Source of the DNA: a virus | DNA: 43,403 nucleotides | IMG/VR virus record: IMGVR_UViG_3300046557_000856 | Coordinates: 1-43,403 of that record | Direction: 5' to 3' (one strand) | Part shown: positions 8,147-16,507 of the stretch, in pieces | How the letters are laid out: each line of letters opens with the position of its first letter | Position numbering within the stretch: the first letter of the stretch is position 1 | Translations under genes and position numbers: made by a program | The notes under the pieces: model-generated | The model's input: the letters and a program-made list of their open reading frames with translations, nothing else | What the model was told of the DNA's origin: nothing | Databases searched by the model: none

Positions 8147-8451
8147 GGCGTCACCGCGTACAGATGCGACTGTGTTCCCAGGTTGGCGAACGTCGGAACT
8201 GCGTCAGGGTCGCCGTCGGTGGCTACCCACAGTTGGAAGCCAAGGCGGAGATAGCCGAACTGCCCCAGCAGGTCGCATCCGGTGACCAAAGCGAGTCCCT
8301 GCACCAGCGGGTTGCTATTGGCGTCGGCGATGTCGAGCACCCATTCCGACGCAGCGTCCCGCCAGATCAGCGTGAAGACATAGGTGACGTTGAGGATGAG
8401 AACCTGGAAGGACTGAGCCTGGCCCGATAGGGGGATCTCGAACGTACTCAC
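8143..8451 (-). CDS. Baseplate plug-like protein
   Basis: A 102-residue protein between the Dit-like protein and the hub. Segments such as FEIPLSGQAQSFQVLILNVTYVFTLIWRD and the C-terminal FANLGTQSHLYAV match small phage proteins called baseplate plug proteins (cyanophage Pam3 gp18 type). They close the channel at the tail end or brace the hub. Start and stop both overlap neighbours by four bases, so it is translationally coupled. Assignment rests on position and overall pattern. Confidence 0.65.
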   Translation of the reverse strand: MSTFEIPLSGQAQSFQVLILNVTYVFTLIWRDAASEWVLDIADANSNPLVQGLALVTGCDLLGQFGYLRLGFQLWVATDGDPDAVPTFANLGTQSHLYAVTP

Positions 8452-9044
8452 GATCCGCCACCTAGGAATCCAGCAAACGAGGAAAGCACGCTTTGTGATA
8501 CCGGCTTAGGCTGGACCGTTCCCTTATTCACCACTGGCGCGGTTTGCTCGGGGCTAGCCTGGTTTGCCGGGTCAACCTGGACCTCTTGCACATTGACGAT
8601 GAAGATCTCTTTGAACGTCACCGTGACGCTGAGAACGTTTTCCGTGCTCTTGTCGGTGATCTGCTCGATCGCCTGGATAAGCATGTTGCTGTAGGGACGC
8701 TTGCCCGTCTGAAGGACAAAGGGCTGGCGTGAAGCCTGTAGAGTCAACAGCTGGTTGTAGATGTCCACCGGATCGGAGCTGATGATGCCGCCGCCAGTGA
8801 TATCGAAAATCGCCCCGCTATTGCTCCACCCATAGCGAGCCGTAACGACCGCCTGCAGCTTGTAGGCATGGTCAGTGATCGCCGCGCCGTTCTGGATCGG
8901 ATGCTCGGTGATTGCCAGTTCGTCGCGCGCCCGTTCCTCGATCGTGCACTGCGGGATGATCGTCCCGATGGATCGGCTGGTGCGGAGAAGGATGTCCTCC
9001 ACGGTGCCAGCAATGACGAGTCCGAGCGAAGAAAGGATGCTCAC
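8448..9044 (-). CDS. Dit-like baseplate protein
   Basis: A 198-residue protein placed after the tape measure gene, as is usual for distal tail (Dit-like) proteins. The N-terminal domain shows EHPIQNGAAITDHAYKLQAVVT and a GWSN segment; the middle has YNQLLTLQASRQPFVLQTGKRPYSNMLIQAIEQITDK, a pattern of the Dit-like phage tail protein N-terminal family. The C-terminus (about 155-198) is Pro/Val/Gln-rich and flexible. It probably forms the ring between tail tube and baseplate. Confidence 0.75.
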   Translation of the reverse strand: MSILSSLGLVIAGTVEDILLRTSRSIGTIIPQCTIEERARDELAITEHPIQNGAAITDHAYKLQAVVTARYGWSNSGAIFDITGGGIISSDPVDIYNQLLTLQASRQPFVLQTGKRPYSNMLIQAIEQITDKSTENVLSVTVTFKEIFIVNVQEVQVDPANQASPEQTAPVVNKGTVQPKPVSQSVLSSFAGFLGGGS

Positions 9045-10867
9045 ATCGCCGCCGTGGTCTGAAAGTTGCGGACAAGCCGCTGGTTCACCGAGTCCTGCTC
9101 GCGACCGACTGCCGAGGCCGTCTCCTGCGGATTACCCGGGCCGTAAACGTTGATCGTTGTCTGCGTGCTCAGCTGGGCGCCCGCGGCTTGCTGGTACTGG
9201 GCATCGCTGTACGGGTTGCGTCCCTGCTCGTGGAGCGTGATGGCCTGCATGAGCTTTGCCTTGGTCGCCACGTCGTTGAGGTTCAGCTGCGCATCGGGGC
9301 TCACCCCAAGACGCCCAGCGACGTCCGCGATATATGCCGGCGTGTTGTTCTCACTGGACGGCGCGTACTTGGAAATGATGTCGCGGATGGTCTGGAGCTT
9401 CTGGAAGCCCGCGGCTCGAGACTGGCCATTGAAGTACAGCCCCAGCTGATTGCTTAACGCGTTCAGGCCTTCCTGCGGTGTGGCGTAGGAACCGAATGTG
9501 CCTCCGGGCCCAGTGCGGAGATTGCCCGGGTTGTTCTGCCGGATACCCAATGGCTGAGAACCGTCCGCCGGTGCAGGCGCACCAGGCTGACCATGCTCGT
9601 AGGGCTTGCCGGTGATCTGGTTCCAGATCTGCGACGCGGCATTGCCGAACGCCGCAGCGTCCTTCTTGGCGTCAGGCGTCATGCCCGCATCAACGCTAGC
9701 CTTGAGCCATTGGAAACCCTTCGAGTAGGCCGCACCGACCGCATCCCTCGTTCCCTGGGTCTTCTCAAGAACCCACTGGACGGCCTTGCTGCCCTCGACA
9801 GCATGGACCACCTTCATCACCCATTCGTAGGCTTCTTTGACCGCCTCGGTGAGTTCGTGCCAGCCTTCGACGATATGTGGCCATGCGAACTTGGCAATGG
9901 CCCACAGATTGTTCAGGCCGTCGCCAATCATGTCGATGCCAGCCTTGGCAAGGTCGATCTCAGGCTTCCACTTGCCCCAGTCGATCAGGCTCTTCCCGCC
10001 CTCCTTCCATACCTTGAAGTCATCCCAGAGAAGCGCGATGGCCGCGGCGAGCGCCCCAATCCAAACGACTGGACCGCCCAGGATGATAGCCATGCCAGCG
10101 ACCAGACCCGCGACCCACTCCGCAACCGTCTTGATGTTGTCCTTGGTCGAAGCGTCGATCGAATCCCAGCGGTATTCCAGTTCGTTGAGGATGCCGATGA
10201 TGCGCGTACCAACGACCGTGCCAAGAACTTCGAAGTTGGCCTTGAGGTCGCGCAGGCTGATGTTGAACTGGTGGTACAGCTCTGTTGCCTTGGTGACGTC
10301 CAGGCCGTATCGGGCAAGGATCTGCTTGTAGCGATCACTGAACTCGTCGGTGCCTTTGATGAGCGCCTGGAGCGTCTTCTCGTCGATGCCGAGGACGTTG
10401 GCGCGAGCATAGGCCTGGGCGTAGGGCATCGAACGGAACAGCTTGCCCAAGTCTGTAAGGAGAACCGCCGTGTCCCGCAGCTCTCCATTCGCATCGCGCG
10501 TCTGGATGCCCCACGACTTCAGCAGGCTCTCGCCGCCGGGATTGATGCGCAGGAACTTGGCCAGCGCTTCGATCGAGCCGCGCGCGGCGTCCGATGAGCT
10601 GCCGAGGTTGTCGGCAGCGAATCCGAGGGCCTTGATGTTCTCGGCGGATGCCCTGGTGCGCTGGCTGGTGAAGTACAGCTCTTCCAGGCCGTTGGCCATC
10701 TTTGTCACGCCCGCCATCACGGCGGTCGCGGTGGCCACGGCAGCGACGCCAAGCGCAGCTACCTCTTTGGAGACGTTCTTGACGCCGTCGATGAACTTGC
10801 GCTCGCCGGACGAATCGACCTTGTAGCCGAGAGAGACCAAAAACTCTCTGATCACCTCGGTACTCAT
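9041..10867 (-). CDS. Tape measure protein with C-terminal P5/lysozyme-like domain
   Basis: A 608-residue tail tape measure protein that sets tail length and probably helps DNA cross the envelope. Residues about 30-60 and 195-250 are helical; 252-281 form a strong hydrophobic segment (GLVAGMAIILGG...GALAAAIALLW). Residues about 441-530 are a separate domain beginning GIRQNNPGNLR and continuing YATPQEGLNAL, II.KYAP..ENNT and YIADVAGRLGV, the pattern of the structural protein P5 / peptidoglycan-hydrolase-like family. A fusion of a tape measure to a murein-acting module is plausible for tail-tip penetration. Start ATG overlaps the chaperone frame stop by ATGA. Confidence 0.9.
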   Translation of the reverse strand: MSTEVIREFLVSLGYKVDSSGERKFIDGVKNVSKEVAALGVAAVATATAVMAGVTKMANGLEELYFTSQRTRASAENIKALGFAADNLGSSSDAARGSIEALAKFLRINPGGESLLKSWGIQTRDANGELRDTAVLLTDLGKLFRSMPYAQAYARANVLGIDEKTLQALIKGTDEFSDRYKQILARYGLDVTKATELYHQFNISLRDLKANFEVLGTVVGTRIIGILNELEYRWDSIDASTKDNIKTVAEWVAGLVAGMAIILGGPVVWIGALAAAIALLWDDFKVWKEGGKSLIDWGKWKPEIDLAKAGIDMIGDGLNNLWAIAKFAWPHIVEGWHELTEAVKEAYEWVMKVVHAVEGSKAVQWVLEKTQGTRDAVGAAYSKGFQWLKASVDAGMTPDAKKDAAAFGNAASQIWNQITGKPYEHGQPGAPAPADGSQPLGIRQNNPGNLRTGPGGTFGSYATPQEGLNALSNQLGLYFNGQSRAAGFQKLQTIRDIISKYAPSSENNTPAYIADVAGRLGVSPDAQLNLNDVATKAKLMQAITLHEQGRNPYSDAQYQQAAGAQLSTQTTINVYGPGNPQETASAVGREQDSVNQRLVRNFQTTAAM

Positions 10868-11004
10868 CGCTTCATCCTTTCCGCTTTGATTTCGTTTTCG
10901 GTGACCACGTCGATTGCATCATTGGCCCAGGCGATTGCCTCTAGGTCCAATGTCCCATCGATTAGGCTTTCCATCCGGCAATAGCCTTTGATCACCGGAC
11001 GCAT
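10864..11004 (-). CDS. Tail assembly chaperone, second frame (DUF6889-like; T part of a G/GT pair)
   Basis: A reading frame that ends in ATGA overlap with the tape measure start. From an internal ATG at 11004 it gives 46 residues (MRPVIKGYCRMESLIDGTLD...), matching the small DUF6889 type of phage protein found between the tail chaperone and the tape measure. The frame stays open upstream without a stop, back past the slippery site at 11088-11094. A -1 shift there would give a fused protein of 193 residues from start 11444. Independent initiation at 11004 is possible (GAGG eight bases upstream). As in lambda G and GT, the fused form would bind the tape measure protein. Confidence 0.8.
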   Translation of the reverse strand: MRPVIKGYCRMESLIDGTLDLEAIAWANDAIDVVTENEIKAERMKR

Positions 11005-11039
11005 CAACCAATCCTCGCCATCAGGCAAGGAGGCCCAAA

Positions 11040-11444
11040 CTACGCTGCCGCCGTCGGGGTACTCAGTAGGGACGCGGCGCTTCCTTGAAAAAAACCGCCG
11101 AGGTTCTCCGTGATCACCTTGGAGGCGATCTGGAGCATCACACCCATGTCGATGTCATCAAACATCTGCGCCTTGTTGACGAAAATGTTGGCCCACGTCG
11201 AACCCTGCTGCTGCCGCTGGACGCTTGCGAGGCAGGTGTCCAGGACATAGTCACAGTCCGCGTCGGACATGCCTGCTATGGCGTCGGCGATGGGCTGCAG
11301 GAACGTGGCGAAGTTGTCGGTCTTTCCCTGCGATGCCGTGGCCAGGCCGCCCAGAACCGGCGCCAGACGCCGGGCTACATGGAACTGCTGGCGCGCATTG
11401 AGCTTGCCGCTACGGTAGTGCTGGCCGTTGATCTCGAATTCCAT
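11040..11444 (-). CDS. Tail assembly chaperone, first frame (G part)
   Basis: A 134-residue protein between the tail tube and tape measure genes. It begins MEFEINGQHYRSGKLNARQQFHVARRL, a common opening of phage tail assembly chaperones. It ends with a short low-complexity tail after a slippery run of seven T. I start at 11444, which overlaps the stop of the tube gene by TGATG; the longer frame to 11558 runs inside the tube gene. The gene order tube, chaperone, chaperone-extension, tape measure is universal in long-tailed phages. Confidence 0.85.
   Translation of the reverse strand: MEFEINGQHYRSGKLNARQQFHVARRLAPVLGGLATASQGKTDNFATFLQPIADAIAGMSDADCDYVLDTCLASVQRQQQGSTWANIFVNKAQMFDDIDMGVMLQIASKVITENLGGFFQGSAASLLSTPTAAA
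11047..11094 (-). promoter_or_regulatory. Programmed -1 frameshift signal in the tail chaperone gene
   Basis: On the minus strand the zero frame reads GGT TTT TTT CAA, a perfect T_TTT_TTT slippery heptamer (11094-11088). Nine bases further a stem can form: GCCGC-GTC (11078-11071) with GAC-G-GCGGC (11055-11047), with a 15-base loop and one bulge. The -1 frame is open from here to the stop at 10864. Site, spacer and stem fit the standard -1 recoding layout of tail G/GT genes. Efficiency cannot be judged from sequence. Confidence 0.8.
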
Positions 11445-11896: not shown

Positions 11897-13378
11897 TTAG
11901 CGGTTGACGGAGATGAGAACGTTGGCGAAGTGCACGGCGCCGGCGAGCTTGACGGCGACCTGTGCGGTCGGTGCCTTGCGCGCCTCGCGGTCGGCCTGGC
12001 TCTGGCTGGCCACCGGCGGCATGAAGACGTAGTAGCCCTTGGTCAGGGTCTGGCCGGTAGAGATCGCGCCAAAACCCGGTGCGTTCCAGACACCCGGCGC
12101 CAGCAGACCGTTGTTGACGCCTTCCTCGCAGGCCTGCTCGATCGCTCCTGCGATCTGGTTCGTTCCGGCATCGGTTTGCGGGATCTTTGTCGGGCTCGTG
12201 TACAGCAGGTTGTAGACGTTGGTCTGGACAGCGTTCTGCAACCAGTCGAGGCCGTGGCGCTCATCGAAGAAGTCGCCGCTGCACATCACGCCCTGCTGGA
12301 CGATGGCCGTGGCGTTGTTGAAGTTCACGAAGACATTGCAGTCCTTCGCGTCGATGGTTGCCGCCTGGGTCTCGTTGAGAGTTTCCGGCGTAACCGTCGG
12401 CTCCTGCTTGAACTTCAGGGTGATCGTGCTGTTGTTCGCGGTGAAGTCGACCGTGAACGCGCGGCCATAGAGCGACGCGGCTGCATAGGGGCTGCTGCTC
12501 GAATACTGGATGAAGGTCCGGCCAAAGTTGGCCGCCGACAGCTTCGAAGCCAGGTCGGTCGTCTGGGTCGGATCGAGAATGGCGCTGGAGGACGACGTGA
12601 TGCCATAGATGCGGCTGGGCGAGGCGGCCTCGATATAGGTGGCAACGGCGATGTGGTCGTTGTCCACCACCGCCGCATCAGCCACCGTCAGGCCGTACCA
12701 GTCGCCGAAGGGCGCGCACGCCAGCACGCCCGCCAGTAGGGTCTCGGCGACGATGCCCTGGACCGGCACGGAGGCTACACCAGTGACCAGGCCCATCAGG
12801 CCTGAAATGTCCGTGCCCGATCCCGGATTGCTTCCGTAACTGACGCTTGAGGTTGCACCGGTGGTCGAACTGACGACGTCGAAGCGGTTGAAGCTGGCGT
12901 TCCAGGTGACCGTCGCGGCGCCGGCGAGAGCGGTGGTGACCGCCGATGCCACACCGTTGAGATTGGTGACCGACGACAGGTTGATGGCCGTCAGCGTCTT
13001 CAGCGTGCCGTCCACGGTGACCTTCAGGCCGCCGGAGCTCACCGCGGTGAAGTTGGCGATCGCCTGCTGAGCTGCGGATAGGACGCCACCATGGAGCACG
13101 CCCGAGGTCGCAGTCTTGGCCCAGCGTCCGATATACAGAACCGACGGTTGCGGCGACTGCGAGAAGAACAGGGTCGCGGCCAGGTATTCCGGCGCCGTCG
13201 AACCGAAGTCCGCAACGACACCGGCGATGGTCGTGTACTGCCTGACTCGCTCGTTGGTGTCGATGACCGCCGACGAGCCGAGAATCAGAAGCGCACCGAA
13301 GTTCCGTACAGCCGCTGCAAGTGGATTGAGCGTGACCTGTACGTTGACGACGTCGCTGACGGAAAGACCTTTCGACAT
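11897..13378 (-). CDS. Contractile tail sheath protein (DUF3383)
   Basis: A 493-residue DUF3383 protein, the sheath of a group of myoviruses. The N-terminus LSVSDVVNVQVTLNPLAAAVRNFG and the region YLAATLFFSQSPQPSVLYIGRW are characteristic. The C-terminus has GYYVFMPPVASQSQADREARKAP and a strand-rich end. Its presence directly before the tube gene shows the tail is contractile. The start is ATG at 13378, 12 bases after the stop of the upstream gene. Confidence 0.92.
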   Translation of the reverse strand: MSKGLSVSDVVNVQVTLNPLAAAVRNFGALLILGSSAVIDTNERVRQYTTIAGVVADFGSTAPEYLAATLFFSQSPQPSVLYIGRWAKTATSGVLHGGVLSAAQQAIANFTAVSSGGLKVTVDGTLKTLTAINLSSVTNLNGVASAVTTALAGAATVTWNASFNRFDVVSSTTGATSSVSYGSNPGSGTDISGLMGLVTGVASVPVQGIVAETLLAGVLACAPFGDWYGLTVADAAVVDNDHIAVATYIEAASPSRIYGITSSSSAILDPTQTTDLASKLSAANFGRTFIQYSSSSPYAAASLYGRAFTVDFTANNSTITLKFKQEPTVTPETLNETQAATIDAKDCNVFVNFNNATAIVQQGVMCSGDFFDERHGLDWLQNAVQTNVYNLLYTSPTKIPQTDAGTNQIAGAIEQACEEGVNNGLLAPGVWNAPGFGAISTGQTLTKGYYVFMPPVASQSQADREARKAPTAQVAVKLAGAVHFANVLISVNR

Positions 13379-15455: not shown

Positions 15456-16456
15456 CAGATGCCGTCCACGTAGTTGATGGTCTCGGGGTACACCACTTCC
15501 ACCACGCCCAGGCGGCCGAAGTAGGTGGTCAGCTGGTGGATGCCGCGATATTCCAGCGGGGTGCGCTGCAGCGGGACCAGCGGGAAGCGGACCAGGTTGC
15601 GGTCATTGGTGTAGGCAACCATGCGGTCCTTGCCGGAAGCGCCGCGGCCCGTGAGCCACTTCAGCGGCTGAACGTCCAGCGGGCGGCCATTGATGCTGTT
15701 GCAGATGGAGTTGTTCTTGATGAACTCCAAAATGCTGATATTGCCCGCCGAGCTGATCAGCGTGCTGACCAGGTAGGAGAACTTCAGCGGGGGGAGCAGC
15801 AGCTTGTCCGGGCAGCGAGCAAAGCCGGATGCGGCCCAGTTCGCCTGGAGTTCGGCGTTGACGTCCGCCAGAATCTGCAACGGCGTGGTGGTGCCGTTCG
15901 TCCAGTTGCCGGTCACGGCGTTGGTGACGGTCACACTGGTGTTGTTGACCAGTCCGGAGAAGCCCAGCGTGGTGTCACCGATGTAAACCTGCTCATCGAT
16001 GTCCATGTTGTACTTCAGCTGCAGGCCTTCGTACTTCTGCTGGTCGACCGGGCGGCCGAGCTTCTGTGCCGATTCCAGCTCGGGGATGGTCCATCCCAGC
16101 TGCTGGCCCCAGAGGGTCAGCGGATTGGCCGTCTTGCCGATGTCCAGCTGAATGCCGGTGATGGCATTGGCGTCTTTGCCGATCCAGCTCTTACCACTGG
16201 GCGAAGGACCGCCGGCGGCAGCGAACGTGGAGTTCGTGAAGCTCGACACCTCATCGGCGATCGAGACGTCTTCACGCAGTTGGATGTCACGGCCCCAGGT
16301 CACGGCGGCCAGCGGCATGTGAAGGGTCTGGTCCAGACGTTCCAGCTCGCCGATCAGGAACGAGCCCGAGCTGTCGATGGTGGCCGCGTCGAAAGTCATC
16401 AGACTATCGCGCGTGTAGGCGCGCTTCACCGAGCGCGGCAGGATCAATTCTTTCAT
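15455..16456 (-). CDS. Major capsid protein (DUF2184)
   Basis: A 333-residue DUF2184 protein, the HK97-fold major capsid protein of this phage group. Recognisable blocks are ERLDQTLHMPLAAVTWGRDI near residue 40, LDIGKTANPLTLWGQQLGWTIPELESA, and the C-terminal RFPLVPLQRTPLEYRGIHQLTTYFGRLGVVEVVYP. I start at ATG 16456 (MKELILP) because GGAGA lies eight bases upstream; the extra 62 codons upstream run through the terminator and are not coding. Length agrees with the family. Confidence 0.9.
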   Translation of the reverse strand: MKELILPRSVKRAYTRDSLMTFDAATIDSSGSFLIGELERLDQTLHMPLAAVTWGRDIQLREDVSIADEVSSFTNSTFAAAGGPSPSGKSWIGKDANAITGIQLDIGKTANPLTLWGQQLGWTIPELESAQKLGRPVDQQKYEGLQLKYNMDIDEQVYIGDTTLGFSGLVNNTSVTVTNAVTGNWTNGTTTPLQILADVNAELQANWAASGFARCPDKLLLPPLKFSYLVSTLISSAGNISILEFIKNNSICNSINGRPLDVQPLKWLTGRGASGKDRMVAYTNDRNLVRFPLVPLQRTPLEYRGIHQLTTYFGRLGVVEVVYPETINYVDGI

Positions 16457-16482: not shown

Positions 16483-16507
16483 AAAAAAACCGCCCGGAGG
16501 CGGTTTC
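16483..16507 (-). terminator. Terminator between capsid cement and major capsid genes
   Basis: On the minus strand a CCGCC / GGGCGG stem with a short TCC loop is followed by seven T. It lies between the stop of the cement gene (16533) and the capsid start (16456). In a co-directional operon it would adjust the cement-to-capsid ratio or be passed by an antiterminated polymerase. Confidence 0.8.

Follow-up and report, generated by a model that had tools for sequence, protein, structure and literature searches.

The slippery heptamer of the lambda tail chaperone gene is G_GGA_AAG. In lambda (gpG and gpGT) and in P2, a short and a −1 extended chaperone are made in a ratio that is important for tail assembly, and such frameshifting, long established in these two phages, is widespread among tailed phages (PMC5009743). 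The role ascribed to the long form, to supply the chaperone-coated tape measure with tube subunits, comes from lambda (PMC5009743). In Vandenendeviridae (Pseudomonas phage Adele) and in Andersonviridae, an invariant GTTTTT close to the 3′ end of the TAC-N gene is the site of the −1 frameshift, and the extension is often annotated as a hypothetical gene (PMC12846349). Closer to the locus described here, a frameshift product of a homologous chaperone is entered in the Mulock and Magia records, and for Magia it is also stated in a paper (PMC7883833). A frameshift tail chaperone of this type is therefore already known, both in kind and in homologous phages; the one reported here is real and not new in kind, and our understanding of tail assembly is unchanged by it.

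The window, that is, the whole stretch of DNA analysed, is a 43,403-base IMG/VR virus record whose nearest matches among named genomes are to Dyella; its virus is a temperate myophage. The chaperone gene sits between the gene for a PF11681 structural protein and the tape measure gene (Table 1), with its ATG at 11444–11442 and its TAG stop at 11042–11040 on the minus strand. Its zero-frame product matches the PF21822 (Phage_TAC_15) profile with an E value of 2.1e-30 (106.3 bits, curated cut-off 22) and phrog_1688 (tail assembly chaperone) with an E value of 1e-37; a search of NCBIfam gave no match. An earlier note, made from the sequence alone, had placed a perfect T_TTT_TTT in this frame at 11094–11088, and the reading there (CTC GGC GGT TTT TTT CAA GGA) bears this out. 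It had also described a −1 frame that is open from the heptamer to a stop at 10864, ends in DUF6889-like sequence and yields a 193-residue fusion. This, too, is what we find, with 119 residues before the slip and 74 codons after it (about 75 in the note). The −1 frame ends with TGA at 10866–10864, which overlaps the tape measure ATG at 10867 (ATGA). Within it, DUF6889 (PF21829) is matched with an E value of 1.1e-12 (48 bits, curated cut-off 23.9), and phrog_4364 matches residues 25–72 with an E value of 7e-17.

Table 1 Features of the chaperone locus and its neighbours in the window
Feature	Position	Strand	Remarks
Dit-like protein gene	8448–9044		
Tape measure protein gene	9041–10867	minus	Weak PF10145 match; annotated tape measure at same place in Magia and BgManors32
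−1 frame extension (TAC-C, gpT-like)	10864–11088	minus	74 codons plus TGA stop; base 11088 read twice
DUF6889 domain (PF21829)	10867–10980	minus	Residues 37–73 of −1 frame; the 74 codons end at 10867
−1 frame ATG, potential independent start	11002–11004	minus	GAGG before it
Tail assembly chaperone, short form (TAC-N, gpG-like)	11040–11444	minus	134 aa, zero frame; PF21822, phrog_1688
Possible stimulatory hairpin	11044–11081	minus	7 to 9 nt after heptamer; minimum-energy structure, −12.1 kcal/mol
Slippery heptamer T_TTT_TTT	11088–11094	minus	Last base of G117 plus codons F118–F119; zero-frame phase
GGAG, possible internal Shine–Dalgarno-like stimulator	11106–11109	minus	11 nt upstream of heptamer
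KPP10_Orf10-type structural protein gene, PF11681	11444–11887		Family named after phage KPP10 ORF10
Sheath-like DUF3383 protein gene	11897–13378		

The locus has the G/GT layout: its two frames overlap, the second is in −1, and the tape measure gene comes right after them. The same order is found in annotated relatives. The likeness to lambda that the earlier note had drawn is apt, although the lambda heptamer is a different one and the phage of the window has a contractile tail. Mulock and Magia resemble the window in having a homologous chaperone with its extension in the same gene order; they differ in the slip sequence, which at the aligned codon is T_TTT_ATC in Magia, T_TTT_TTG in Mulock and T_TTT_TTT in the window. 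Vandenendeviridae share the arrangement, and the chaperone of Moogle is only a weak structural match to that of the window.

On these grounds and those below, the chaperone gene very probably undergoes programmed −1 ribosomal frameshifting that adds the DUF6889 domain. The window sequence by itself is only suggestive of this: two runs of seven T are seen in its 43 kb against 1.4 expected, and the 74 codons stay open in 3.4% of shuffles of the extension. It is because of the comparison with relatives that the heptamer and the open −1 frame lie far beyond chance. The comparison covers 114 distinct loci, the window among them, which come from two viral-contig scans, one genome-contig scan and 18 phage regions. 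Of these 114 loci, 98 carry a heptamer of the form X_XXY_YYZ, placed either at the aligned codon or at the one before it, against a background of 64 in 15,540 in-frame codons (0.4%) elsewhere in the same genes. After thinning to pairs below 70% identity, 46 of 57 loci have the heptamer and 52 of 57 at least T_TTT at the codon.

The slip site, whose conservation the earlier note had proposed to test, is thus kept among relatives, though the run is not always one of seven T. T_TTT_TTT alone is found in 31 loci, A_AAT_TTT overlapping T_TTT_TTG in 26, A_AAT_TTT alone in 12 and C_CCT_TTT in 11, the remainder being mixed; in all, the forms found are T_TTT_TTT, T_TTT_TTG, T_TTT_TTC, T_TTT_TTA, A_AAT_TTT, A_AAT_TTC, C_CCT_TTT and G_GGT_TTT. 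In the 26 overlapping cases (L039, L041 and L128 among them), the sequence GGA AAT TTT TTG makes up two heptamers one codon apart. A strict heptamer is missing from 16 loci, most of which retain T_TTT at the codon, reading CCT TTT ATT or similar; on this T_TTT, a single tRNA-Phe might slip. One locus from a beta-proteobacterial bin (L097, positions 2300–2500) has a PF21822-type chaperone with neither extension nor heptamer and with the tape measure gene immediately after it, which suggests that this lineage has naturally lost the long form.

Coding constraint on the −1 frame was analysed in the 110 loci with at least 60 open codons in the extension; of the four left out, one is fused, one has no extension, one is cut by the contig end and one is cut or has no stop before the contig end. 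In none of the 110 loci does a stop interrupt the −1 frame, whereas the remaining two frames contain 519 and 506 stops. In the stretch that separates the zero-frame stop from ATG 11004, the substitutions counted in 11 close relatives number 100, 74 and 271 at −1 codon positions 1, 2 and 3, respectively (pairs are not independent), and variable sites 4, 3 and 10 in 12 codons. Inside the frame overlap, substitutions are even (259, 243 and 225), as expected if either two frames are read or neither is strongly held. The −1 coding constraint is clear from the zero-frame stop onward. The −1 frame protein is conserved from LPDGEDW on, and in several phages the tblastn alignment of the −1 frame reaches back to the slip site, with residue 1 or 2 as its first. 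Both the protein conservation and the third-position substitution extend upstream of 11004, into the stretch whose conservation the earlier note had proposed to test.

AlphaFold2 predicts a helical extension with a mean pLDDT of 92.7 that is confident from its first residues. A helix at residues 26–33 spans residue 29, the position of ATG 11004, so that a protein begun at this codon would start inside the helix. For most of the chaperone the model is confident, though less so at about residues 31–50, and pLDDT falls to 57–59 in the zero-frame tail past the slip site (after about residue 120). In a fold search of a viral library, several proteins named tail assembly chaperone matched the first domain, and nothing was found for the second, DUF6889. 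No credible relative of either domain came up when solved structures were searched by sequence and by fold; for DUF6889, this is a point of difference from the lambda and P2 systems. The most plausible structure match to the N-terminal domain, 5ir0, was rejected as not credible at an E value of about 1.

Several records annotate DUF6889 as a separate gene, and a small gene that began at ATG 11004 (or TTG 11007), had a ribosome-binding site to itself and was translationally coupled to the chaperone would make the slippery run incidental. The GAGG before ATG 11004 gives a Shine–Dalgarno duplex of −6.1 kcal/mol, comparable to those of other genes here. However, these same bases are paired in a predicted hairpin and code for the conserved GED of the LPDGED motif, the coding constraint reaches upstream of the start, the predicted fold would be cut within a helix, and the heptamer is conserved; moreover, ATG, GTG and TTG are all absent ahead of DUF6889 in 17 of 110 relatives. 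The open −1 frame, the upstream constraint and these start-less loci exclude separate initiation from a usual start as a general explanation. Some separate product from 11004 is possible in this window, but a small gene in place of a frameshift is very unlikely.

We give even less credence to slippage of RNA polymerase, which by adding or dropping a U on the seven-T run would join the frames in a fraction of transcripts. The window does have the homopolymer of seven T. Relatives often lack one, reading A_AAT_TTT, C_CCT_TTT, G_GGT_TTT or T_TTT_ATT, and still keep the −1 frame; transcriptional slippage is unlikely because what they conserve is a codon-phased heptamer, which is a ribosomal requirement, and not a homopolymer. 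A third rival reading is that one continuous gene has been split by an error of sequencing or assembly, and the chance of this is close to nil. Homopolymers are error-prone, and in one relative (L053, IMGVR_UViG_2846523622_000001, locus at about 2360–2420), both frames lie in a single 204-aa ORF that reads GGA AGT TTT TTT GCA at the site, where its own relative L042 reads GGA AAT TTT TTG CAC. This single ORF may come from an error in the homopolymer or be a constitutive fusion that arose naturally. The error reading is refuted by 110 relatives, drawn from isolates, genomes and metagenomes, that show the same break. Taken together, the heptamer, the lack of stops, the start-less loci and the codon-position substitutions give strong comparative support to the −1 frameshift that the earlier note had read from a single sequence.

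From the arrangement, the conservation, the coding constraint and the predicted folds, we infer a ribosomal slip, its frequency and the roles of the two chaperone forms as follows. With programmed −1 frameshifting, the majority of ribosomes would stay in the zero frame up to the stop at 11040 and make the 134-aa short form. At T_TTT_TTT, a minority would slip, both tRNA-Phe re-pairing one base back, and these ribosomes would read the −1 frame to 10864 and make the 193-aa form with DUF6889. By analogy with lambda gpG and gpGT, the short form would coat the tape measure protein; the long form, which would be rare, would use its DUF6889 end to recruit tail-tube subunits.

A downstream RNA structure or an upstream Shine–Dalgarno-like sequence is a common, though not universal, stimulator of such frameshifts. 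A stem nine bases after the heptamer, pointed out in the earlier note, is present in the sequence as the local minimum-energy fold (GCCGC-GTC/GAC-GGCGGC, with one bulge and a 15-nt loop), but as a stimulator it is no more than possible. Its stability is matched by 64 of 200 shuffles (z = −0.45). In 11 close relatives, 83% of cells are paired and two pairs are changed on both sides, a weak covariation that is reached by 16 of 500 shuffles (14 to 78 of 500 across measures). When the 60 nt that follow the site were folded in 110 relatives, the mean z was −0.73; control segments taken from these loci gave −0.44, and this difference was too small for RNA structure to serve as a frameshift diagnostic. 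A search of Rfam returned a single chance-level match, far under the gathering score. Upstream of the heptamer, GGA is invariant and GGAG is present in 10 of the 11 close relatives; family-wide, a Shine–Dalgarno-like tetramer is found in only 45 of 110 loci. A further hairpin, CCTCCTTGCC TGAT GGCGAGG, is predicted in the −1 frame at window positions 11007–11038 (minus strand), where it pairs the Shine–Dalgarno-like bases of the alleged start at 11004.

The best reading of DUF6889 is as the C-terminal domain that frameshifting adds to chaperones of the PF21822 family. More broadly, it is probably nowhere a gene of its own but always the frameshift-encoded, tube-recruiting C-terminal domain of this chaperone, its signal being kept while the heptamer changes (T7, A_AAT_TTT, C_CCT_TTT, G_GGT_TTT) and moves by one codon, and L097 having lost extension and heptamer together. 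This would provide a likely function for a domain of unknown function, for which a literature search gave no result. In a sample of 369 genomes, DUF6889 had one match over the cut-off, in a known Dyella prophage, and one below it, too few to judge standalone occurrence. The earlier note had stated that the second part is usually annotated as a separate gene. This holds for 6 of 16 annotated relatives, which give it a small gene of its own; another 8 have no annotation for it, and the last 2, Mulock and Magia, list the product of the frameshift. Reading the extension as part of the chaperone thus corrects a recurrent annotation error, as 14 of the 16 split or omit it. The naturally varying heptamers at one homologous site also form a set for comparing efficiency.

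The second run of seven T in the window (16483–16489, minus strand) lies in an intergenic gap, after a GC-rich inverted repeat, CCGCCTCCGGGCGG, and before a gene that opens at 16456 (MKELILPRS...). Together with the inverted repeat, this run is likely to be an intrinsic terminator upstream of that gene.
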